45,734 nucleotides of DNA from Reyranella sp. (GTDB lineage: Bacteria; Pseudomonadota; Alphaproteobacteria; Reyranellales; Reyranellaceae). Below, piece by piece: positions 17,803-28,745 of this stretch. The notes beneath the pieces are model-generated. The model searched no databases. It was not told the DNA's origin and saw nothing but the letters and a program-made list of their open reading frames with translations. The DNA lies in the NCBI GenBank assembly GCA_017990895.1, contig JAGNNA010000002.1:1-45734 (forward strand), written 5' to 3'. A program made the position numbers and the translations under genes. Each line of letters starts with the position of its first letter. Positions within the stretch are counted from its first letter, which is position 1.

Positions 17803-18078
17803 TCACTTGCGGGCCTGCACCTTACCGCCTTTCCGGGCGGCGGGGGGCACCCGAGCCTCAGAACTGCCCTCGTCCTTCGGACGGTCCACCGTGGGCTCCA
17901 GCCCGTAGCGGCCGCCCTCCTCCTCGTCCTCGCGCTCGTAGCCCGGTCCCTCCTCCGCACCGGCGCCGTAGACGCCTTTCTCACGCCGTTCCTCGCGGCG
18001 CGCGTCCCTGGCCTGGTCGGTGCCGCTGTAACTGGCCGAGGCTTCGTTGGGGTCGGGCTTCTGAGGCGTGCGGGCCAT
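17803..18078 (-). CDS. Small, probably disordered, charged protein
   Basis: 91 aa, rich in Glu, Arg, Gly and Pro (ARREERREKGVYGAGAEEG and YEREDEEEGGRYG), with no hydrophobic core, signal or membrane segment; likely intrinsically disordered. ATG 18078 is preceded by GGAG at normal spacing; a longer frame upstream has no site. Compositionally like stress-induced small hydrophilic proteins, but that is only a resemblance. It reads away from the DUF2252 gene, so the two share the promoter region containing the TGA-N6-TCA box at 18166. Confidence 0.6.
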   Translation of the reverse strand: MARTPQKPDPNEASASYSGTDQARDARREERREKGVYGAGAEEGPGYEREDEEEGGRYGLEPTVDRPKDEGSSEARVPPAARKGGKVQARK

Positions 18079-18165: not shown

Positions 18166-18179
18166 TTGACTTACGTCAA
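18166..18179. promoter_or_regulatory. Candidate Crp/Fnr-family (FNR/FixK-type) box
   Basis: TTGACTTACGTCAA: perfect TTGA-N6-TCAA dyad, extended to a 6-bp arm on each side (CTTGAC / GTCAAG, 18165-18180). It matches the FNR/FixK consensus TTGAT-N4-ATCAA at all core positions. It lies 77 bp before the DUF2252 start and 88 bp before the divergent 91-aa gene. Regulator not in window. Confidence 0.5.
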
Positions 18180-18199
18180 GTCAAGTCACGTCACGTCAT
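18175..18199 (+). repeat. Five tandem GTCAN pentamers
   Basis: GTCAA, GTCAA, GTCAC, GTCAC, GTCAT in uninterrupted succession, the first overlapping the right arm of the FNR-type box. Five-base period, so alternate units fall about one helical turn apart. It could extend the operator, or be a slippage-prone tract that alters promoter spacing. Confidence 0.7.
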
Positions 18200-18255
18200 A
18201 CGCTTGTAGTCTTCCAAGGTGGCGCGGTCCGCGCCCGCCCTTAAGGATGCCGTCG

Positions 18256-19677
18256 ATGACCAACGTGACGAAGTTGCACGCCAAGCCCACCGTTCCCGAA
18301 CTCGACCGCCCGGCGCACTCGGTGCCGGCCGACGACCTCGTTGCCGCCGGCAAGCGCCTGCGCGACACGGTTCCGCGCGCGAGCCAGGGCGCCTGGAAGC
18401 GCCCGAAGGACCGCCGCGATCCGCTGGAAATTCTCCAGGCCTCCGACGAGGGTCGCCAGATCGATCTCCTGCCAATCCGCTACGGCCGCATGCTGCAGTC
18501 GCCGTTCACGTTCTATCGCGGGGCGGCCGCCGTGATGGCCGCCGATCTTGCCGGGACGCCCGCGACGGGCGTTCACGTGCAGGCCTGCGGCGACTGCCAC
18601 CTGCTGAACTTCGGCGGCTTCGCCACGCCCGAGCGCCGCATCAACTTCGACATCAACGACTTCGACGAGACCCTGCCGGCGCCTTGGGAATGGGACCTCA
18701 AACGCCTGGTCGCCTCGTTCGTGCTGGCGGCGCGGTCGAACGGCCTATCGGACGCGGCCGGGCGAGACGCGGCCCAGGCGGCGGCGCGGAGCTACCGCGA
18801 GCGCCTGCGCGAAGTCGCCGAGATGAGCCCGCTGGAGGCCTGGTACACGAAAATCGGACTGGAGGAGCTGTTAAGCCTGACCGACGACCCGCAGATCCGC
18901 AAGCGCGTGCAGCGCCGGGTCGAGGCCGCGCAGGACGAGCGCTCCGCCGACGTCGACTTTCCCAAGCTGGCGGAAATGGTCGGCGGTCAGGTCCAGATCA
19001 AGGACCAGCCTCCCCTGATCTTCCACCCGGACTTAGCGCGCGCGGAAGACTTCAGGGAGGCGGTGGACAAGGCCTTCGCCAGCTACCGCGACACGCTGTC
19101 CGACGACCGCAAGGCGCTGCTCGACCGCTATCGGCTGGTCGACGTCGCCATGAAGGTGGTCGGCATCGGCAGCGTCGGCCGGTACTGCTCGATCGGCCTG
19201 CTGATGTCGTCCTCGAACCAGCCGCTGTTCCTCCAGTTCAAGGAGGCCGTGCCCTCGGTGCTGGAGCCCCATGTCGGCAAGAGCGGCTACGGTCACGCCG
19301 GACAGCGCGTGGTGCAGGGCCAGCGCCTGATGCAGTCGTCGTCCGACATCTTCCTGGGCTGGACGACGGGATTGCGGGGCAACGACCTTTACGTTCGCCA
19401 GCTGCGGGATGCGAAGATCAAGCCGCTGGTCGAGACCTTCGACCGCAAGATGCTGGTGCTCTTCGGCAAGGCCTGCGGCTGGGCCCTCGCGCGGGCGCAT
19501 GGGAGGGCCAGCCATCCCTGGCTCATCGCGGGCTATCTCGGTACGAGCGAGGCGTTCGACGAGGCCATGGCAACGTTCGCCGTGAGCTATGCCGACCAGA
19601 CCGAGCGCGACCACGCGCTCCTGAAAGCGGCGGTCGCCGCCGGCCGGATCAAGGTCCATCTCGAAGAGGACCGATAG
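18256..19677 (+). CDS. DUF2252 family protein
   Basis: 473 aa, cytoplasmic. Recognised by QACGDCHLLNFGGF (about 109-122), INFDINDFDETLPAPWEWDL and later GSVGRYCSIGLLM and KSGYGHAGQRVVQGQRLMQ. The GDxHxxN ... FDxNDFD pair resembles the catalytic and metal-binding motifs of aminoglycoside-phosphotransferase-like kinases, so an atypical kinase fold is a reasonable inference; the substrate is unknown. Start ATG 18256 has AAGG 9 nt upstream (ATG 18247 is too close to it). First gene after the FNR-type box; followed after 17 bp by the DUF4239 gene, so probably an operon. Confidence 0.88.
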   Translation: MTNVTKLHAKPTVPELDRPAHSVPADDLVAAGKRLRDTVPRASQGAWKRPKDRRDPLEILQASDEGRQIDLLPIRYGRMLQSPFTFYRGAAAVMAADLAGTPATGVHVQACGDCHLLNFGGFATPERRINFDINDFDETLPAPWEWDLKRLVASFVLAARSNGLSDAAGRDAAQAAARSYRERLREVAEMSPLEAWYTKIGLEELLSLTDDPQIRKRVQRRVEAAQDERSADVDFPKLAEMVGGQVQIKDQPPLIFHPDLARAEDFREAVDKAFASYRDTLSDDRKALLDRYRLVDVAMKVVGIGSVGRYCSIGLLMSSSNQPLFLQFKEAVPSVLEPHVGKSGYGHAGQRVVQGQRLMQSSSDIFLGWTTGLRGNDLYVRQLRDAKIKPLVETFDRKMLVLFGKACGWALARAHGRASHPWLIAGYLGTSEAFDEAMATFAVSYADQTERDHALLKAAVAAGRIKVHLEEDR

Positions 19678-19694
19678 ACGCGCGGGCGCTGGCG

Positions 19695-20483
19695 ATGCCG
19701 TTCGACATCGACGACCATTCCCTGCGCGTGATCTTCGGGGCGAGCCTGGTGCTGATCCTCGGCGCCGGCGAAGCGGGCCATTGGCTGGGCGTGCGGGCGG
19801 CCCGACAGGGCGCGGCCGCGGTATCGACCCTGGAGGGCGCCATCCTCGGCCTGCTGGCGCTCATGATCGGGTTCACCTTCTCGATGGCCCTGTCGCGCTA
19901 CGAAGCCCGGCGCGATGGAGCCGTGACCGAGGCCGCTGCGATCGGCACCACGGCGCTGCGCGCCCGCCTGCTGCCGGCGCCGCACGACCGCGAGTCCGTG
20001 AAACTGTTGCGGGAGTACGTCCAGATCCGCCTCGATCTCGCCCGCGGGCCGGTCAGCCGGGAAATATTCGACCAGGCGATTGCGCGCTCGAACCTCCTGC
20101 AGGAGGCGCTCTGGCGGCAGGCGCAGGCGGTGGCCGCCAAGGATAACGGGATGGTGCCGACGGGGCTCTTCATCCAGTCGCTGAACGAGATGATCGACGA
20201 CCAGGAGAAGCGCCTGGCGGCGATGTCCAACCGCCTGCCCCTCATCGTCATCGCCGCCCTCTACGCCATGTCCATCATGGGCATCGGCTTCGCCGGCTAC
20301 GGCAGCGGCGTCGAATCGAAGCGGTCGCGGGTGCCCGTGCTTGTCACCGGCCTCCTCGTGGCGGGAATGGTGCTGCTGATCCAGGATATCGATCGGCCGG
20401 GCGCCGGTTTCATCAGGGTGAGCCAGCAGCCGCTGGCGAACGCGGCCTCCACGATCGACGCCTTTCCGGCCGCCCGACCATGA
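19695..20483 (+). CDS. DUF4239 (bestrophin-like) membrane protein
   Basis: 262 aa with two N-terminal helices (about 14-30 and 44-66, including GAILGLLALMIGFTFSMALSRYEARR), a long soluble helical region, and two C-terminal helices (about 178-200 and 212-235). The GFTFSMALSRYEARR segment after the second helix is the hallmark of this family, which is described as bestrophin-like; anion conduction is possible but not shown. Start ATG 19695; no strong ribosome site, likely coupled to DUF2252. Its TGA overlaps the next ATG (ATGA). Confidence 0.82.
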   Translation: MPFDIDDHSLRVIFGASLVLILGAGEAGHWLGVRAARQGAAAVSTLEGAILGLLALMIGFTFSMALSRYEARRDGAVTEAAAIGTTALRARLLPAPHDRESVKLLREYVQIRLDLARGPVSREIFDQAIARSNLLQEALWRQAQAVAAKDNGMVPTGLFIQSLNEMIDDQEKRLAAMSNRLPLIVIAALYAMSIMGIGFAGYGSGVESKRSRVPVLVTGLLVAGMVLLIQDIDRPGAGFIRVSQQPLANAASTIDAFPAARP

Positions 20484-21166
20484 CCCAGCCCAAATCCCTG
20501 ACGCGCGGCAGGCTGCGGACGCCCCGGGCGGCCGCGGTCGCCGGCATCCTGTTCTCCGGTCTTCTGATCGCCGCGTTCTTGCTGTTCCTGTCGGCGGTCC
20601 CGAGAGACTCGGCAGAGCACGGCACGTGGCTGACCACCGGGCTCGACCGGGTCGTGCTGGCGATCAACCTGATTCCGTTCGCGGGTGTCGCCTTCCTGTG
20701 GTTTATCGGCGTCGTGCGCGACCGCCTGGCCGAGGCGGAGGATCGCCTCTTCGCGACGGTGTTCCTGGGCAGCGGGCTTCTGTTCCTCGCCATGATGTTC
20801 GTGGCCACCGCGGTGTTCGGGGCCATCGTCCTCGTCCATGTGGCTCATCCCGAGGCGCTGCGTGACTCGCCCGCTTTCGCCCTGGCGCGGGCCTTCGCCT
20901 ACACGCTGGTCAACGTCTACGCCATCCGGATGGCGGGCGTGTTCATGCTGATCACCTCGACGATCGCGCTGCGCACCGCCTTCATCGCGCGCTGGATGGC
21001 GGCGCCCGGCTTCGCGATGGGACTGTTCCTGCTGTTCGCCAGCCAGTGGGTCGACTGGAGCTTCCTGCTCTTCCCGCTCTGGGCCCTGCTGATCAGCGTC
21101 TATCTGCTGGTCACCAGCCTTGGTCAGGACGCCGACGGACGCCGGACGACGAAGAGCGTGCCGTAG
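20480..21166 (+). CDS. Six-helix membrane protein of unknown function
   Basis: 228 aa with helices at about 18-40, 58-78, 91-116, 135-160, 170-186 and 190-212. Starts in the ATGA overlap with DUF4239, so co-translated with it. Short, mostly hydrophobic loops; no obvious active-site residues. Its last 43 bp overlap the convergent small membrane-protein gene at 21124-21381. No family recognised; the context suggests a partner of the DUF4239 protein. Confidence 0.75.
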   Translation: MTQPKSLTRGRLRTPRAAAVAGILFSGLLIAAFLLFLSAVPRDSAEHGTWLTTGLDRVVLAINLIPFAGVAFLWFIGVVRDRLAEAEDRLFATVFLGSGLLFLAMMFVATAVFGAIVLVHVAHPEALRDSPAFALARAFAYTLVNVYAIRMAGVFMLITSTIALRTAFIARWMAAPGFAMGLFLLFASQWVDWSFLLFPLWALLISVYLLVTSLGQDADGRRTTKSVP

Positions 21167-21381
21167 CCCGCAACCGCGCAGCAGACTGACAGCGCAAGAT
21201 AGAACAGGCCGAAGAGGTCGTTCTTCACGAGCCCCAGCCACAGCGCGAGGCCCGCGAAGACGACGGCGAGAACCACGGCGCTCCACCAGACGATGCGCAC
21301 GCCCAGCCGCAGCTTCTGCACCCGCTCGTGCGGCTTGGGCTTCTCGGCTTCGGACTCGGGAGGCGGGCGGGGTTCGTCCAT
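21124..21381 (-). CDS. Small two-helix membrane protein
   Basis: 85 aa: Pro/Glu/Lys-rich cytoplasmic N terminus (MDEPRPPPESEAEKPKP), then helices at about 28-49 and 54-76. ATG 21381 gives this clear two-helix layout; the ribosome-binding site is weak. The 3' end overlaps the convergent gene by 43 bp. No family recognised; it may be an accessory subunit. An alternative is that the frame is a by-product of the opposite gene, but most of it (21167-21381) lies outside that gene. Confidence 0.55.
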   Translation of the reverse strand: MDEPRPPPESEAEKPKPHERVQKLRLGVRIVWWSAVVLAVVFAGLALWLGLVKNDLFGLFYLALSVCCAVAGYGTLFVVRRPSAS

Positions 21382-21519
21382 GAGCGATAACGGGCCAGGA
21401 CGGCAGAGGCTGCATCCCGCGCTACGGCCTCCGTGCCCCCTTCCCGGCGTCCAGTCGGAACGGCTACGCTTAGGCGGGGCAAGCCACGCAGCACACCGAA
21501 CGCACGAAGCACGCCGCCT

Positions 21520-22224
21520 ATGATCCAATCGCGACTTACGATCGTCTCCGCATCGCTCGCTGCCATTGTCGCCAGCACCGCCCCCTGCCTCGCACAACGG
21601 CCGGAGCCCGTGCGCATTGGTGGATTCGGCATTGATGCGACCGAAGTGACGATCGGCCAGTTCCGGGCTTTCGCCCGCGCCACCTCTCTGACAACGGCGG
21701 CCGAGCGCGAGGGCGGTGGCTTCGAATACACCGGCGGGTGGACGCGGCGGCAAGGCTGGACCTACGAGAGTCCGCAAGGCCAGCCCGGCCAGGAGTCCGA
21801 GCCCGCCGTGCATGTGACCTGGGCGGAGGCCGATGCCTATTGCCGACATGTCGGCGGCCGTCTGCCGACCATGGCCGAGTGGCGAAGCGCCGCCTACACC
21901 GAGCAGCGCGACCGGCCGACCGACGGTTATGTGCGGGGGCAGACCTACCAATATCCAGTGGGCGACGACCCCGACGGCATGAACAACAACCGCCGGGCGC
22001 ACGTCCCCGTCGCGACCACCAAACGCGGCATCAACGGGCTCTACGACATGGGCGCCAATGTCTGGGAGTGGATGGCGGACCGTCGCGGGGACGAGGCCCT
22101 CACCGCCGGCGGCTCCTGGTGGTACGGCCCGGCCCAGGCCCGCGCCGACGGCACCCAGTGGAAGGCCGCCCGCTTCCACGCCGTCTATATCGGGTTTCGC
22201 TGCGCCTACGATGCGAAGGGCTGA
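21520..22224 (+). CDS. SUMF1/formylglycine-generating-enzyme-like secreted protein without catalytic cysteines
   Basis: 234 aa. Signal peptide MIQSRLTIVSASLAAIVAST, cleaved near CLAQ. FGE-sulfatase fold signatures: IDATEVTIGQFRAFARAT, PAVHVTWAEADAYCRHVGGR, LPTMAEWRSAAY, GLYDMGANVWEWMADRR, TAGGSWW and the C-terminal GFRCA. In true formylglycine-generating enzymes the GGS motif is followed within a few residues by two catalytic Cys; here it reads GGSWWYGPAQ, so that activity is not expected. Probably a periplasmic binding or structural member of the family (as in PvdO-like proteins). Lies between membrane-protein genes and carbonic anhydrase. Confidence 0.85.
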   Translation: MIQSRLTIVSASLAAIVASTAPCLAQRPEPVRIGGFGIDATEVTIGQFRAFARATSLTTAAEREGGGFEYTGGWTRRQGWTYESPQGQPGQESEPAVHVTWAEADAYCRHVGGRLPTMAEWRSAAYTEQRDRPTDGYVRGQTYQYPVGDDPDGMNNNRRAHVPVATTKRGINGLYDMGANVWEWMADRRGDEALTAGGSWWYGPAQARADGTQWKAARFHAVYIGFRCAYDAKG

Positions 22225-22359
22225 GGCCACGCGTGCCGAGCGGCGCGGGCCCGGACGTTCGAGCGGTCCGCCGAGGTGGGGGACTTTCGGTCCAGCCCGG
22301 AATGGTCTATGGGCCGCGAAATCAGCGATGTCCGACCAGTCCGAAGCAGCCCGGCCCAC

Positions 22360-23082
22360 ATGACCCTCGACGACCTATTCGATCGCAACGTTGCCTGGGC
22401 ACAGCAGAAGACACGGGACGATCCGACGTTCTTCGTGCGCATGGCGGAGCAGCAGTCGCCCCAGTACCTGTGGATCGGGTGCTCCGACAGCCGGGTCACG
22501 GCCAACGACGTGCTGGGCCTCGATCCCGGCGCCGTGTTCGTCCAGCGCAACATCGCCAACATCGCACACAGCAACGACATGAACCTGCTGGCGGTGCTGG
22601 AGTTCGCCATCGACATCCTGAAGGTGCGCCACGTGATTGTATGCGGCCACTACGGCTGCGGTGGTATTCGCCGTGCGCTGGGGGAAGATCGCTCGGCGCT
22701 GGTCGATCACTGGCTGCAGCCGGTGGTCACGCTGTACCGCCGCCACCGGGCGGTTTTCGACGCCCTTCCCGACGAGAACGCCCGCGTCGACCACATGTGC
22801 GAACTCAACGTCGAGATGCAGGTCCGCCGTGTCGCCTCGATCCCGACCGTCGAGAACGCCTGGGCGCGCGGCCAGGCGCTTCACCTGCACGGCTGGATCT
22901 ACGGCATGCACGACGGCTTGCTGCGCGACCTTGGACCGACGATCTCTTCCATGGAGCAGCGTGACGCCCTGCCGGCCGCCGAGGACCGAGTGGGGCGACC
23001 CGTCGACGCCAGCACGGGGATACGCCGCCATGCCATCGCGGCCTTCTCGCAGTTGCCGCTGTCCGAGCAGGAACCCACGTAG
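22360..23082 (+). CDS. can: Beta-class carbonic anhydrase
   Basis: 240 aa. Zinc ligands Cys41, His97 and Cys100, with the catalytic dyad Asp43-Arg45 in GCSDSR and CGHYGCGG; NIAN and the helical N terminus MTLDDLFDRNVAWAQ match E. coli Can. Interconverts CO2 and bicarbonate in the cytoplasm. Start ATG 22360 aligns with known family N termini; ATG 22309 is in frame but adds an unusual extension, and ribosome sites are weak for both. In the same island as a SulP transporter (27099), a combination often seen where bicarbonate uptake is involved, though SulP substrate is unproved. Confidence 0.93.
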   Translation: MTLDDLFDRNVAWAQQKTRDDPTFFVRMAEQQSPQYLWIGCSDSRVTANDVLGLDPGAVFVQRNIANIAHSNDMNLLAVLEFAIDILKVRHVIVCGHYGCGGIRRALGEDRSALVDHWLQPVVTLYRRHRAVFDALPDENARVDHMCELNVEMQVRRVASIPTVENAWARGQALHLHGWIYGMHDGLLRDLGPTISSMEQRDALPAAEDRVGRPVDASTGIRRHAIAAFSQLPLSEQEPT

Positions 23083-23334
23083 CGGCAGTCGGGCGCCTCA
23101 CCACGGCGCAGCGACCATCGCCGGCTCAGAACAGGACCTCGCGCGTCTTCCATCTGCCCATTCCAGACTTCTGGAGCAGGTGGAACAGGCGCCGGTCGTC
23201 CAGCGGCTTTTAGGAATTGAGAGACCGGACGGCACAGAACCGCACGGAAGCCTCGGCCCGACTCTCTTCGTCTTGGGCGAGACCGATCGGCTGGGAAGGC
23301 ATCGCCGTTTCCGTCAGCGAGACCGCAAAACTCC
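23083..23334. other. Intergenic region with a faint open frame
   Basis: 252 bp between the convergent carbonic-anhydrase and VIT1-like genes. No promoter, RNA or clear terminator hairpin recognised. On the minus strand one frame from ATG 23302 to TGA 23126 is protein-like (ending DDRRLFHLLQKSGMGRWKTR then EVLF) but carries an in-frame TAA at 23210-23212; it may be a decayed short gene or chance. Confidence 0.3.
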
Positions 23335-23994
23335 TCAGCCGCCAAGAGCAACCGCCACCAGGACCAGGGCAACGCCAAGGGTCCCGACGATCATCGCCCC
23401 GCGCCATCCCGATATGCCGGTGTAGTGCGCCCACCGGTAGCCGACCCCCAACAGGAGGATGACCTGCAGGGCATTGGCGATTCGCAGGGCAAGGTTGGTG
23501 GAGGGAACCGCCATCAGCGGCAGAAGGCCCGGAAGGGCGGTGCACGTGACGAGGACGAAGATGATGATGGCCGCCATCAGTTCGTCGCGGGAGAATGGCG
23601 CCCGCTCGGCGGTAGCGTCACGGAAGAAAGCCAACAGGGAGCGATGCAGAGCTTCCCGGTCTTCTTGCGAGGCCTGCGGTTCGCCTTCGAGGCCGAATTC
23701 CTCGCGTACCAGGCCGATTGCCTCCTCGTCGCTGGCAGCGCCCTGCAAGCGGCGCGTGAAGCGCACCCGGCGATTGCGATTGAACTGTGATCCCAGCAGG
23801 TAGAAGACCGCATCGATCAGGCCCCAGGCGACATTGCAGCCAAGCAGGCCGAGGGCGAGATCCAGCCGCCTGATCTCGTCGGGATCGGACAGGAGCCGTG
23901 CCCCCGCCGTCATGGTGAGAGCCATGATCAGCCCGAACAGGATTTCGAGGAGGCTCTCGCTCGGGTCGAGGTAGCGGTCGAGCAGGCGAAGCAT
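23335..23994 (-). CDS. VIT1/CCC1-like membrane protein
   Basis: 219 aa with helices at about 16-34, 46-66, 140-160, 166-186 and 196-217. The N-terminal segment EILFGLIMALTMTAGARLL and the following GCNVAWGLIDAVFYLLGS resemble the VIT1/CCC1 iron/manganese transporter family; a charged cytoplasmic domain (about 70-135, many Glu) separates the halves, as in that family. Metal export from the cytoplasm is the family role; specificity unknown. Its ATG directly follows the TGA of the outer-membrane-protein gene with no gap, so the two are one operon. Confidence 0.72.
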   Translation of the reverse strand: MLRLLDRYLDPSESLLEILFGLIMALTMTAGARLLSDPDEIRRLDLALGLLGCNVAWGLIDAVFYLLGSQFNRNRRVRFTRRLQGAASDEEAIGLVREEFGLEGEPQASQEDREALHRSLLAFFRDATAERAPFSRDELMAAIIIFVLVTCTALPGLLPLMAVPSTNLALRIANALQVILLLGVGYRWAHYTGISGWRGAMIVGTLGVALVLVAVALGG

Positions 23995-24948
23995 TCAGTC
24001 AGCCTTCCGGCGCGGCACCCGCCCGACGGAAACGGTCAGGTAGGCATTCCAGCCTTCGGGCCGGTTCTGGGCAGCGAACTCCTTGTACCCCCGCACGTTG
24101 ACGTCGAACCCCAGCGTGCCGCTGGCGTAGGACCAGCCGACCTGGGGCCCCGCGCCGGCGACGCTGGAACGGAAGTCGCCGAGGCGAACCGACCCACCCG
24201 TGTCGGGGCTCAACTGTTTGTAGAGGTAGCCCACGGCGCCGGCATACAGGCTGTCGTTGAAGGAATAGGACACGCCGGCATCGATATGCCCGTCGACGCC
24301 GCTCTGGTAGCGGGTCTGCGGGTTGATGAAGTTGTAGGTCAAGCCGGCCGTCAGGGAGGCCTCGAAGCCGGAGGCCGGCAGGAAGGTGTAGCCCAGCCCC
24401 CAGTCGATCGCGCCGTGGCCCAGCCCGACGCCGGCCAGACGATTGGGATCGTAGGAGCCGGTGGGCACGCTGCCCATGACATAGACCATCGCGTTGTGGA
24501 CGCCGGCCTGCCACTTGAGCGACGCCATGGGGTAGAGGTCGCTGATGCCGGCGGCACTGTCGGACGATCCCGAAGACAGCGACCTCCCGCCAGGACCGGT
24601 GAGGACGCCCCACACGCCGGCACCGGACTGCCCGGCCGAGAACGTGACGGCCAGCGCCAACTGGCCGTTCAGGACCGGGGTTTCCAGCGTATAGGATGGG
24701 GTCAGGTAGACGTACTGCTCGTTGATCGAAAGCCCCGCCAGCACGCCGCCGCCACGGGAGAAGGAAGCGCCGGCCGTCGCGCTGGCGGAGCGCACGTAGA
24801 CCAGCGTCTCCAGCGAAAAGCCCGGGTCACCGGGGACGGAGGCGAAGCTGGCGAACTGGCCTGGCAGCCAAACGCTGGCACCGCCCTCGTCGGCCCATGC
24901 CTCGACCGGCAGGACAAGCACGGCAAGAAGGCCCATTGTTTTGCGCAT
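23995..24948 (-). CDS. Outer-membrane beta-barrel protein (phenol MetA/SphA-like)
   Basis: 317 aa. Signal peptide MRKTMGLLAVLVLPVEAWAD, then alternating amphipathic strands rich in Gly/Ser/Tyr/Ala, ending in a barrel-like segment (GWNAYLTVSVGRVPRRKAD). ATG 24948 with GGAGAG upstream. Motifs YMASLKW-like (YPMASLKWQAGVHNA), TGSYDPNRLAGVGLGHGA and INPQTRYQSGVDGHIDAGVS match the MetA-pathway phenol-degradation/transporter family of outer-membrane proteins, thought to be channels. First gene of the minus-strand operon with the VIT1-like gene; a TGA-N6-TCA box lies 48 bp upstream. Confidence 0.8.
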   Translation of the reverse strand: MRKTMGLLAVLVLPVEAWADEGGASVWLPGQFASFASVPGDPGFSLETLVYVRSASATAGASFSRGGGVLAGLSINEQYVYLTPSYTLETPVLNGQLALAVTFSAGQSGAGVWGVLTGPGGRSLSSGSSDSAAGISDLYPMASLKWQAGVHNAMVYVMGSVPTGSYDPNRLAGVGLGHGAIDWGLGYTFLPASGFEASLTAGLTYNFINPQTRYQSGVDGHIDAGVSYSFNDSLYAGAVGYLYKQLSPDTGGSVRLGDFRSSVAGAGPQVGWSYASGTLGFDVNVRGYKEFAAQNRPEGWNAYLTVSVGRVPRRKAD

Positions 24949-24995
24949 TTGGCTCTCCCCGGTCCTCAATCTAGCAGGTCAGGAGCGCCCGACTT

Positions 24996-25009
24996 GTGAT
25001 CTTGGTCAA
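24996..25009. promoter_or_regulatory. Second candidate Crp/Fnr-type box
   Basis: GTGATCTTGGTCAA: differs from the FNR/FixK consensus TTGAT-N4-ATCAA at the first base and has G for A in the right arm; the TGA-N6-TCA core and spacing are kept and are the same as in the box at 18166. It lies between the divergent outer-membrane-protein and DUF2254 genes. Confidence 0.4.
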
Positions 25010-25099
25010 TGAAACCGTTCGCGGCGGCGCTAGCATCGGGTGCCAGGCGGTGAGCGACGGTGATGGCACCGGTCGCGCCGGATGGGGGAAACAGGGCGC

Positions 25100-26392
25100 A
25101 TGAAGTGGAACGCGCGGTACCGCTTGAAGGAGTTCGCCGGATCGTCATTCTGGTTGTTTCCATCACTCGCCCTGTTGCTGGCCTGGTTCATGGGCAAGCT
25201 CGTCCTGTGGCTGGTGCCCGACCCGCACTGGCCACGGTTCGATGTGACAGAGGTCGAAGGCATGCGCGTGTCGATGGCGGCCTTCGCCTCGTCGATGCTC
25301 ACTTTCATGGTCTACGCCGTTTCGGCGCTGTTGCTGGCCGTTCAGCTCGCCAGCGGCCAGACATCGCCCCGCCTGATCCGGCTGACCTTCGGACGATGGC
25401 AGACCAAGGCCAGCGCCAGCGTGTTCGTCTTCGCCTTCGGTGTCACCATGGTGGCGCTGGCCAACACGAGCGAAAGCACGCGGCATGCCGCGCTGATCAT
25501 GCTGGCGATCGCGGCCAACGTCGTGGCCATCGCCGTGTTCTTCTGGTTCGTCGAGCAGGTCGGGCTGGGCCTGCGGCCGGTGAGCTTGATGCAGAAGGTG
25601 TTCGTCGACGGCAAGCAAGCCATGGACACCGTCTACACGGGAGCCCAGGTGACAGGCGTCGAGCCGGCGTCGAGCACCGCGATCGAACCGGTGGGACGCC
25701 AGAACCGGATGATCCGCCGGATTGGCCCGTCCGGCACGTTCCTCGCGTTTGGCGCGCGAGACCTCGTGGCGTTGGCCCGCGCGGCCAACTGCACGATCGA
25801 GCTAATCCCGCAGGTCGGCGATTTCGTGTCGACCGACGATGTCCTCGCGCGGGTCTATCCGCCTTCCGCGACGATCGACGAGGAAGCCGTCAATGCCCTG
25901 GTGGCCTTTGGTCCAGAACGCACCATGCGCCAGGATCCGATGTTCGCCTTCCGCATCATGGTCGACGTGGCGATCCGGGCGCTGTCGCCGGCGGTCAACG
26001 ACCCGACCACTGCCGTGCTGGCGCTCGACCAGATCCATCGCCTGCTGCGCTACGCCGGGGGCAGGAACCTCGACAATGCGCGGGTCCTCGACGAGGCGGG
26101 CGTGTTGCGGTTGGCCTTTCCGACGCCGAACTGGACGGAGATTGTCGAACTGGCGGTGACGGAGATCCGCCAATACGGCGCGTCGAGCACGCAGGTGGCA
26201 CGCCGGCTGCGTGCCATGCTGGAGCACCTGATCGACCGCCTGCCGGAGGAGAGGGCGCCGGCCCTGCACGAGGAGCTGGCGTTGCTAGAGCACGCGGTCG
26301 TCCGCAGCTTCGCGGATGGAGAGGATCGACGTCGCGCCAGTGTCGGCGACCTGCAGGGGCTGGGCGGGTCGTCGAGCCGGTCGGACCTGTAG
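25100..26392 (+). CDS. DUF2254 family membrane protein
   Basis: 430 aa. Family N terminus (RLKEFAGSSFWLFPSLALLL), four helices within about residues 15-160 (including MLTFMVYAVSALLLAVQLAS followed by GQTSPRLIR), then a large soluble domain with RALSPAVNDPTTAVLALDQI, the most conserved motif of the family. Function undetermined. Start ATG 25100 fits the family and has a G-rich site upstream; ATG 25082 lacks one. First gene of a plus-strand series leading to the SulP gene. Confidence 0.87.
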   Translation: MKWNARYRLKEFAGSSFWLFPSLALLLAWFMGKLVLWLVPDPHWPRFDVTEVEGMRVSMAAFASSMLTFMVYAVSALLLAVQLASGQTSPRLIRLTFGRWQTKASASVFVFAFGVTMVALANTSESTRHAALIMLAIAANVVAIAVFFWFVEQVGLGLRPVSLMQKVFVDGKQAMDTVYTGAQVTGVEPASSTAIEPVGRQNRMIRRIGPSGTFLAFGARDLVALARAANCTIELIPQVGDFVSTDDVLARVYPPSATIDEEAVNALVAFGPERTMRQDPMFAFRIMVDVAIRALSPAVNDPTTAVLALDQIHRLLRYAGGRNLDNARVLDEAGVLRLAFPTPNWTEIVELAVTEIRQYGASSTQVARRLRAMLEHLIDRLPEERAPALHEELALLEHAVVRSFADGEDRRRASVGDLQGLGGSSSRSDL

Positions 26393-27098: not shown

Positions 27099-28745
27099 AT
27101 GAACCGGGGCGTGCTGCTCTCTTGGCGAGAAGGCTATTCGCGGACGCGCCTGCGGCTCGACATCGTGGCGGGCCTGTCACTTGCCGCTTTCGCGATTCCC
27201 GAGTCGTTGGCTTACGCGTCCCTTGCGGATCTCCCTCCGGTCTCAGGTCTGTATTGCTACCTGGTGGCGGGGCTTGCCTACGCGGTGTTCGGGTCGAGCA
27301 GGCAACTCGCCATCGGGCCGACATCGGCCCTCGCGATCGCCGTGGCGGCCGGCATCGCGGCGATGGGCGGCGGCGATACAGCCCGCGTCGTCGCGATCGG
27401 CGGCGGCATGGCCCTGCTGACCGGTCTGATCGCCGTCGGTGGCCGCTACCTCGGCCTTGCGAACGTCGCCTACTTCCTGTCCGACACGGTCGTGACCGGC
27501 TTCAAGACCGGCGCCGCGATCTACATTGCCTCGACGCAGCTTCCCAAGCTGTTCGGCATCTCCGGTGTGCAGGGCAACTTCTTCGAGCGTATCGCCCACG
27601 TCGCCCAATCTCTCCCCGCGACGCATGTCCCGTCGCTGGTGGTCGGGCTTTTGGCCATCGGCCTGTTCCTCGTGCTGGAGAGGGCCTTGCCGGGCCGGCC
27701 GACCACGCTTCTTGTCGTGGCGGGCGCCATCGCCGCGACCGCCTTTCTGGGGTTGGGCGGCTTCGGCATCCACCTGGTGGGCGAACTGCCGACCGGCTTG
27801 CCGGCGATCGGGCTTCCCGACATCCAGCTGTCCGACCTCCGGGACCTGATCCCGACCGCCCTCGCCTGTTTCCTGCTGGCCTACGGCGAGACGATCTCGG
27901 TGGCCCGGACCTTCGCCCAGAAGCAGGGCGACGAGATCGATCCCGAGCGCGAGCTAACGGCGCTTGGCATGGCCAATGTCGCGACCGGTCTCGCCCGGGG
28001 ATTTCCCGTCGCGGGCGGCATGTCGCAGACGGCGATCAACCACATGGGTGGCGCCACCTCGCCGATGGCGCTGGTGGTCACCTCCGCAGCCGTCGCGCTC
28101 ACGCTGGTGTTCTTCACCGGGCTCTTCCGCAACCTGCCGGAGCCGGTACTGGCGGCCGTGGTTCTGATGGCGGCCAAGCATCTGGTCAAGATCGACGAAC
28201 TCCGCGAGATGCGACGGGCGTCGCACACCGAGTTCCGGATTGCGCTCGTGGCGCTGCTCGGTGTCCTCACGTTCGGCCTGCTCAACGGCCTGCTGCTCGC
28301 AGCGCTGGGTTCGCTGATCGTACTGCTGGCGCGCGCAGCACGACCTCTGGTCGTCGAACTGGCCCGCGACGGAACGGGCCGTTTCGTGAATCGCGACCGG
28401 CTCGATGCGGCCCCGTCTCTGGCCGGGGCAATGGTCCTGCGCAACGCCGGTCCGTGGCTCTACTTCAACGCCGACCACATCCGGCGGCAGATCCTGGCGT
28501 TCGTCGAGCGATCCGATGCGCCCGTTGACACGCTCGTTCTCGACTTCTCGATGGTGCCCACCATCGACCTGAACGCGATGACGAGCCTTCGGTCTCTGGC
28601 CTCGACCCTTCGCGCCAAGGGAATCGCGCTGCACCTGGCCGAAATGCGCGACGACCTGGCCGAGGACCTCAGGCGGCGCGGCGGCGAGGAAGACCTCGGC
28701 CATGTCGCAGCTCACCGGACCATCGATCATTGCTTGGCCAGGTGA
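27099..28745 (+). CDS. SulP-family anion transporter with STAS domain
   Basis: 548 aa. About 12-14 helices in residues 20-415, with the family opening DIVAGLSLAAFAIPESLAYA, PVSGLYCYLVAGLAYAVFGS, SRQLAIGPTSALA and later GGMSQTAINHMGGATSP. C-terminal STAS domain from about 440 (VLRNAGPWLYFNADHIRR, LVLDFSMVPTIDLNAMTSL). Imports sulfate, bicarbonate or other anions with Na+ or H+. Proximity to a beta-carbonic anhydrase 4 kb upstream favours bicarbonate, but sequence alone cannot decide. Lies 28 bp after the lipoprotein gene, so probably the same operon. Confidence 0.92.
   Translation: MNRGVLLSWREGYSRTRLRLDIVAGLSLAAFAIPESLAYASLADLPPVSGLYCYLVAGLAYAVFGSSRQLAIGPTSALAIAVAAGIAAMGGGDTARVVAIGGGMALLTGLIAVGGRYLGLANVAYFLSDTVVTGFKTGAAIYIASTQLPKLFGISGVQGNFFERIAHVAQSLPATHVPSLVVGLLAIGLFLVLERALPGRPTTLLVVAGAIAATAFLGLGGFGIHLVGELPTGLPAIGLPDIQLSDLRDLIPTALACFLLAYGETISVARTFAQKQGDEIDPERELTALGMANVATGLARGFPVAGGMSQTAINHMGGATSPMALVVTSAAVALTLVFFTGLFRNLPEPVLAAVVLMAAKHLVKIDELREMRRASHTEFRIALVALLGVLTFGLLNGLLLAALGSLIVLLARAARPLVVELARDGTGRFVNRDRLDAAPSLAGAMVLRNAGPWLYFNADHIRRQILAFVERSDAPVDTLVLDFSMVPTIDLNAMTSLRSLASTLRAKGIALHLAEMRDDLAEDLRRRGGEEDLGHVAAHRTIDHCLAR

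Follow-up and report, generated by a model that had tools for sequence, protein, structure and literature searches.

Among the closest described counterparts of the locus reported here are the alphaproteobacterial FNR, FnrN and FnrL regulons, with which it shares the TTGA-N6-TCAA box, ccoN and uspA targets and a regulator with iron-sulfur cysteines (PMC2908626, PMC4999443). The locus is a gene island with two such boxes, box 1 upstream of a DUF2252 gene and box 2 upstream of a gene for an outer-membrane protein. It lies in a stretch of 45,734 nucleotides (the window), contig C236 of a metagenome-assembled genome of Reyranella, a soil and water bacterium and not a rhizobium; the assembly comprises 5.09 Mb in 557 contigs and is 77.6% complete. 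The alphaproteobacterial FNR core regulon names the cbb3 oxidase and Usp (PMC2908626), and chromatin immunoprecipitation peaks of Rhodobacter FnrL include TTGAC...GTCAA forms like the boxes found here (PMC2908626, PMC4999443). Hsp20, HlyD and a zinc alcohol dehydrogenase, listed in the predicted FixK regulon (PMC2908626), are all boxed in our genome, which differs in that no FixK was found in the incomplete assembly. Outer-membrane proteins are also represented among known targets, by the FNR-controlled OmpW (PMC2908626, PMC4886647); unlike OmpW, the island protein belongs to the Phenol_MetA_deg family and is encoded next to a VIT protein. The box and the regulator are thus of ordinary, known kinds. 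What is new is the link of DUF2252 and its neighbours with the regulon, for which we found no published report. The available sections of the FNR, FnrN and FnrL target lists do not name DUF2252, DUF2254 or the outer-membrane protein–VIT pair, which unnamed hypothetical proteins in them might include (PMC2908626, PMC4999443), and a literature search on Reyranella and FNR returned nothing relevant.

Both boxes are very probably sites for dimers of an FNR/FixK-type regulator, predicted to activate the DUF2252 promoter and the promoter of the outer-membrane protein–VIT pair at low oxygen. An earlier note on this DNA had proposed such low-oxygen control, and at the level of sequence the proposal is supported by the conservation of the boxes while their N6 drifts, by a preferred spacing of 22 nt (N22) to a downstream hexamer, by the other genes that carry the box and by a regulator gene. 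The elements and genes concerned are the following.

18166 to 18179, plus strand: box 1, a perfect TTGA-N6-TCAA (TTGACTTACGTCAA, 8 of 8 letters), upstream of the DUF2252 gene
18175 to 18198, plus strand: 5-bp tandem array of GTCAA/GTCAC, its first unit being the right half of box 1
18207 to 18212, plus strand: -10-like hexamer TAGTCT, 27 nt after box 1
18256 to 19677, plus strand: DUF2252 protein of 473 amino acids (PF10009, E = 3.9e-144), first gene behind box 1
23335 to 23994, minus strand: VIT-family protein (PF01988), behind the outer-membrane protein
23995 to 24948, minus strand: outer-membrane protein of the Phenol_MetA_deg family (PF13557, E = 2.8e-36), first minus-strand gene behind box 2
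24968 to 24973, minus strand: -10-like hexamer TAGATT, exactly 22 nt after box 2 on the outer-membrane-protein side
24996 to 25009, no strand assigned: box 2, GTGATCTTGGTCAA (TTGACCAAGATCAC on the minus strand), 7 of 8 letters
25031 to 25036, plus strand: -10-like hexamer TAGCAT, 21 nt after box 2 on the DUF2254 side
25082 to 26392, plus strand: DUF2254 membrane protein (PF10011, E = 8.8e-76), with a later ATG at 25100

The two boxes are present as the earlier note had described them, one a perfect dyad and the other a near match with the same spacing, and each sits between divergent genes. Box 1 is the sole perfect box (TTGA-N6-TCAA) in the 45.7 kb of the window. With a scoring matrix trained on 21 sites, from which both boxes were excluded (training median 21.1 bits, lowest site 16.2), box 1 ranked first in the window with 21.9 bits and box 2 second with 13.1 bits, a score below that of the lowest training site; the third-best window site reached 10.2. 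The earlier note had suggested a matrix scan of the genome as a check, and on sequence grounds the sites do rank with known target classes; ccoN, Usp and Hsp20 are boxed in the same genome.

The DUF2252 promoter was compared in three sets of orthologs, which share genomes and are therefore not independent. All 11 upstream regions aligned initially (the window's, those of eight single-copy genomes and both copies from R. massiliensis, G021) carry a perfect box, and the six central letters differ among them. A search of Reyranella found the perfect box in 9 of 9 cases, window included, where the DUF2252 protein was at least 74% identical, in 5 of 7 at 53–56% identity, and in none of the 15 distant paralogs at 44–50% identity. 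Among named genomes it precedes 12 of 13 genes at 73% identity or above and 10 of 16 other alphaproteobacterial orthologs at 60–65% identity; it is missing from the three Rhizobiales and the six non-alphaproteobacteria of this set. In total, 22 of 38 usable upstream regions of the named genomes are boxed, compared to a mean of 0.1 and a maximum of 2 in 300 shuffles, and the rest of these loci holds only 4 boxes in 147 kb.

For box 2, conservation was judged over 29 loci besides that of the window, one of which (L107) has too short an upstream sequence for the comparison. A perfect box lies upstream of the outer-membrane-protein gene in five relatives. These include all four relatives whose outer-membrane protein–VIT locus has a divergent DUF2254 gene (L079, L080, L081 and L090), and L089, which is boxed without DUF2254. 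None of eight other outer-membrane protein–VIT loci, all without DUF2254, and none of 15 distant outer-membrane proteins has a perfect box upstream. Each box has been retained by descent upstream of the orthologous genes, with a changing N6 centre. The relatives have 21 or 22 nt between box 2 and a -10-like hexamer on the outer-membrane-protein side, and the predicted -10 of the window would likewise place box 2 at a class II position toward this gene. Its start is more likely the ATG at 24948 than the listed TTG at 24969, because the putative -10 (24968–24973) overlaps this TTG. As a driver of DUF2254, box 2 was rejected: TAGCAT stands at 21 nt in the window, but the five relatives have no such hexamer on that side. 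At L079, L081 and L090 a 291-amino-acid open reading frame (ORF), distinct from DUF2254, adjoins box 2 and lies between the box and DUF2254.

The genome as a whole contains 57 perfect boxes, compared to 26 for a reversed control. This difference was not taken at face value, since one repeated element accounts for 6 of the 57. That element contains TTGATCTGATTCAA between near-identical flanks, and its six copies are located near the ends of G000 contigs C7, C71, C112, C224, C377 and C406. For the 51 distinct boxes (102 orientations), a TANNNT hexamer follows after exactly 22 nt in nine cases, against a background of 0.33% per position taken from the remaining spacings from 5 to 38 (P = 7e-11); if the hexamer is the -10, this spacing puts the box centre at -41.5, where FNR stands at class II promoters. 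A crude gene caller placed 17 of the 51 boxes inside ORFs, and it misplaces at least box 1 of the window. In 61 genomes of the genus taken together, N22 gave 217 matches, with 26 for its reversed control, and a spacing of 27 nt (N27) gave 34. Boxes with N22 directly precede, among others, genes for PPK2, a DUF992 protein, an alcohol dehydrogenase, a COX1-family oxidase, Hsp20, Usp and a metallo-beta-lactamase-fold protein; the oxidase is ccoN of the cbb3 type, above the model cut-off. Boxes without the N22 hexamer precede genes for another Usp, DsbD_2, the Cpn60 chaperonin, HlyD, and DUF3141 and DUF3300 proteins.

A candidate regulator is encoded in the same genome. The product of the FNR-type gene at C9:13195-13956 has four cysteines, three of them in a CX2CX7C motif, and a recognition helix reading ETVSR; its best sequence matches in the PDB are FixK2 and FNR type regulators, and its match to the NCBIfam FnrL model is below cut-off. 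Orthologs occur in several relatives, while the best matches in G015, G026, G034 and G011 belong to a cysteine-less FixK-like family. In another genome (G005:C225:22150-25531), a DUF2252 gene (55% identity) has a four-cysteine FNR gene on its own strand at a distance of about 1.4 kb.

In the mechanism we propose, low oxygen would lead the four-cysteine FNR of this genome, a FixK-type relative, or both, to bind TTGA-N6-TCAA, and the bound dimer would contact RNA polymerase at class II promoters. The predicted effect is activation rather than repression: box 1 would switch on a DUF2252 operon, and box 2 an operon of the outer-membrane protein and VIT genes, possibly DUF2254 too, the extent of both operons being putative. 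The island genes would then be satellites of the genome's low-oxygen regulon around cbb3 oxidase, Usp and Hsp20. In the window, one repeat unit has displaced box 1 by 5 nt in the upstream direction, so that its output here may be reduced.

Several observations weigh against this mechanism. Box 2 of the window has lost one of its eight letters. At DUF2252 the N22 hexamer is often missing beyond close Reyranella, and in the named genomes TANNNT stands at exactly 22 nt for only 8 of 23 boxes. R. aquatilis (G015, 99% complete) has kept box 1, and only a FixK-like protein and no four-cysteine FNR was seen in it. In the window itself, box 1 is separated from its -10-like hexamer by 27 nt, where six close relatives have 22, and the genus shows no preference for N27. 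The difference comes from the 5-bp array, which the earlier note did not mention; it includes the right half of box 1 as its first unit and lengthens the spacing by one repeat unit of 5 nt relative to the close relatives. Among the 11 aligned upstream regions the array is unique to the window, the ten others being without it. Assuming that the hexamer is the -10, box 1 would be centred at about -46.5 instead of -41.5, so that the best-scoring site of the window is the one with off-standard geometry, and its strength here is uncertain because of the extra unit. For comparison, 19 of 23 promoters with a known start that FNR activates directly in E. coli have their site within 4 nt of the class II position of -41.5 (PMC3688515), whereas the start in the window is deduced from the hexamer. 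It is possible, if doubtful, that box 1 has been kept in the genus and works poorly in this genome, where the repeat gain would have shifted it by half a helical turn. However, at E. coli frdABCD the activating FNR site lies at -45.5 (PMC3688515), and shifts of a few nucleotides are therefore tolerated; moreover, the perfect dyad of box 1 is undecayed, the -10 is a predicted one, and a metagenome-assembled genome may hold a local error. Reading box 1 in a shifted register (18171–18184) would bring the spacing back to 22 nt, but with a score of only 7.4 bits this is a weak alternative. Box 1 was also considered for the minus-strand gene at 17803 and rejected, as no TANNNT stands at 20–24 nt on that side.

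From the box alone, regulators of FixK type, FNR type and perhaps the Dnr type, which senses nitric oxide (NO), would look the same. The box sequences of the FNR, FixK and Dnr/NnrR-type families overlap. A serious contender, at somewhat under even chances, is that the main reader of the boxes is a cysteine-less FixK-type regulator under FixL/FixJ or post-translational control, and not the iron-sulfur FNR. Many of the examined genomes, including that of R. aquatilis, encode members of a FixK-like family that share the ETVSR helix but lack the cysteine cluster, and for one member (L197) the top-scoring model is NCBIfam FixK, below cut-off; on the other hand, no FixK-like protein was found in our own genome, at its 77.6% completeness, and the four-cysteine FNR is present there. 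We consider it improbable that a Dnr/NnrR-type regulator that senses NO, or another Crp/Fnr regulator, uses the boxes and that the island answers nitrosative stress instead of low oxygen. The genus has several Crp/Fnr proteins, and Crp/Fnr regulators with indistinguishable DNA-binding sequences have been described (PMC2908626), but the genes boxed alongside the island are ccoN, Usp, Hsp20, the alcohol dehydrogenase and PPK2, and ccoN, Usp, Hsp20 and zinc alcohol dehydrogenases are FNR or FixK core regulon classes, with one Usp also under DNR (PMC2908626). No nitrate or NO reductase gene was found among the 20 box-side proteins scanned. That the boxes are chance matches is very improbable, even though box 2 taken alone has only 7 of 8 letters and the window has many sites with one mismatch (11 against 5.9 expected, a count reached by 2 of 100 shuffles): the conservation with drifting centres and the N22 spacing stand against it, and the orthologs rule out a chance origin of box 1, as the five relatives do for box 2.

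The island further contains these genes.

19764 to 20483, plus strand: bestrophin-like membrane protein (PF14023)
20480 to 21166, plus strand: ORF without a Pfam match, overlapping the bestrophin-like gene and kept in six of six close relatives
21433 to 22224, plus strand: FGE-sulfatase-type protein (PF03781)
22276 to 23082, plus strand: beta-type (Pro_CA) carbonic anhydrase (PF00484; NF007756 below cut-off)
23102 to 23239, minus strand: remnant of an fnr-like gene with two internal stops, directly downstream of the VIT gene
27099 to 28745, plus strand: SulP-type anion transporter with a STAS domain (PF00916, PF01740; TIGR00815 below cut-off)

Between the DUF2254 and SulP genes lies one ORF without a family assignment. 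The remnant is 50% identical over 46 residues to residues 29–74 of the FNR of this genome (E = 7.7e-8 for one genome). A second outer-membrane protein (44% identity) is encoded at L175 (C107:7000-13500) behind a metallo-beta-lactamase-fold gene that has an N22 box. In R. massiliensis, one locus (L065, G021:C1:1890600-1910500) has two DUF2252 genes, each with a perfect box, and between them a SulP gene whose product is 65% identical to that of the window.

The AlphaFold model of the DUF2252 protein, a confident one (pLDDT 82), had no match in the PDB by Foldseek at E ≤ 0.001, and its sequence had none in the PDB at E ≤ 1. A fold comparison (VIA) gave a best Z of 5.8, a weak result in which many rows were kinases, covering residues about 250–386. 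Pfam places DUF2252 in the PKinase clan with flipped lobes (PMC9758233), and the model leans weakly to kinase-like folds, in line with this clan. Judging by their family names, the carbonic anhydrase, bestrophin-like and SulP proteins encoded side by side might, at a guess, handle anions or bicarbonate. A wider scheme, which we regard as speculative and rather unlikely, would cast DUF2252, then probably a kinase-like protein with a circular permutation, as a low-oxygen effector widespread among Alphaproteobacteria that forms, together with the bestrophin-like channel, the carbonic anhydrase and SulP, an anion or bicarbonate module driven by FNR/FixK; the remnant at 23102–23239 may stem from an fnr gene that the island formerly had, and gain or loss of 5-bp units may tune the promoter.

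DUF2252 and DUF2254 are nearly unstudied, and the available parts of the literature showed no link of either to oxygen; the boxes would be the first functional handle on them found here. The genus also provides a naturally occurring comparison of promoter spacings, with the same box at 22 nt in the relatives and at 27 nt in the window. The boxes would tie genes of so far unstudied function to life at low oxygen, a link that could be tested in cultured Reyranella and Neoroseomonas species.

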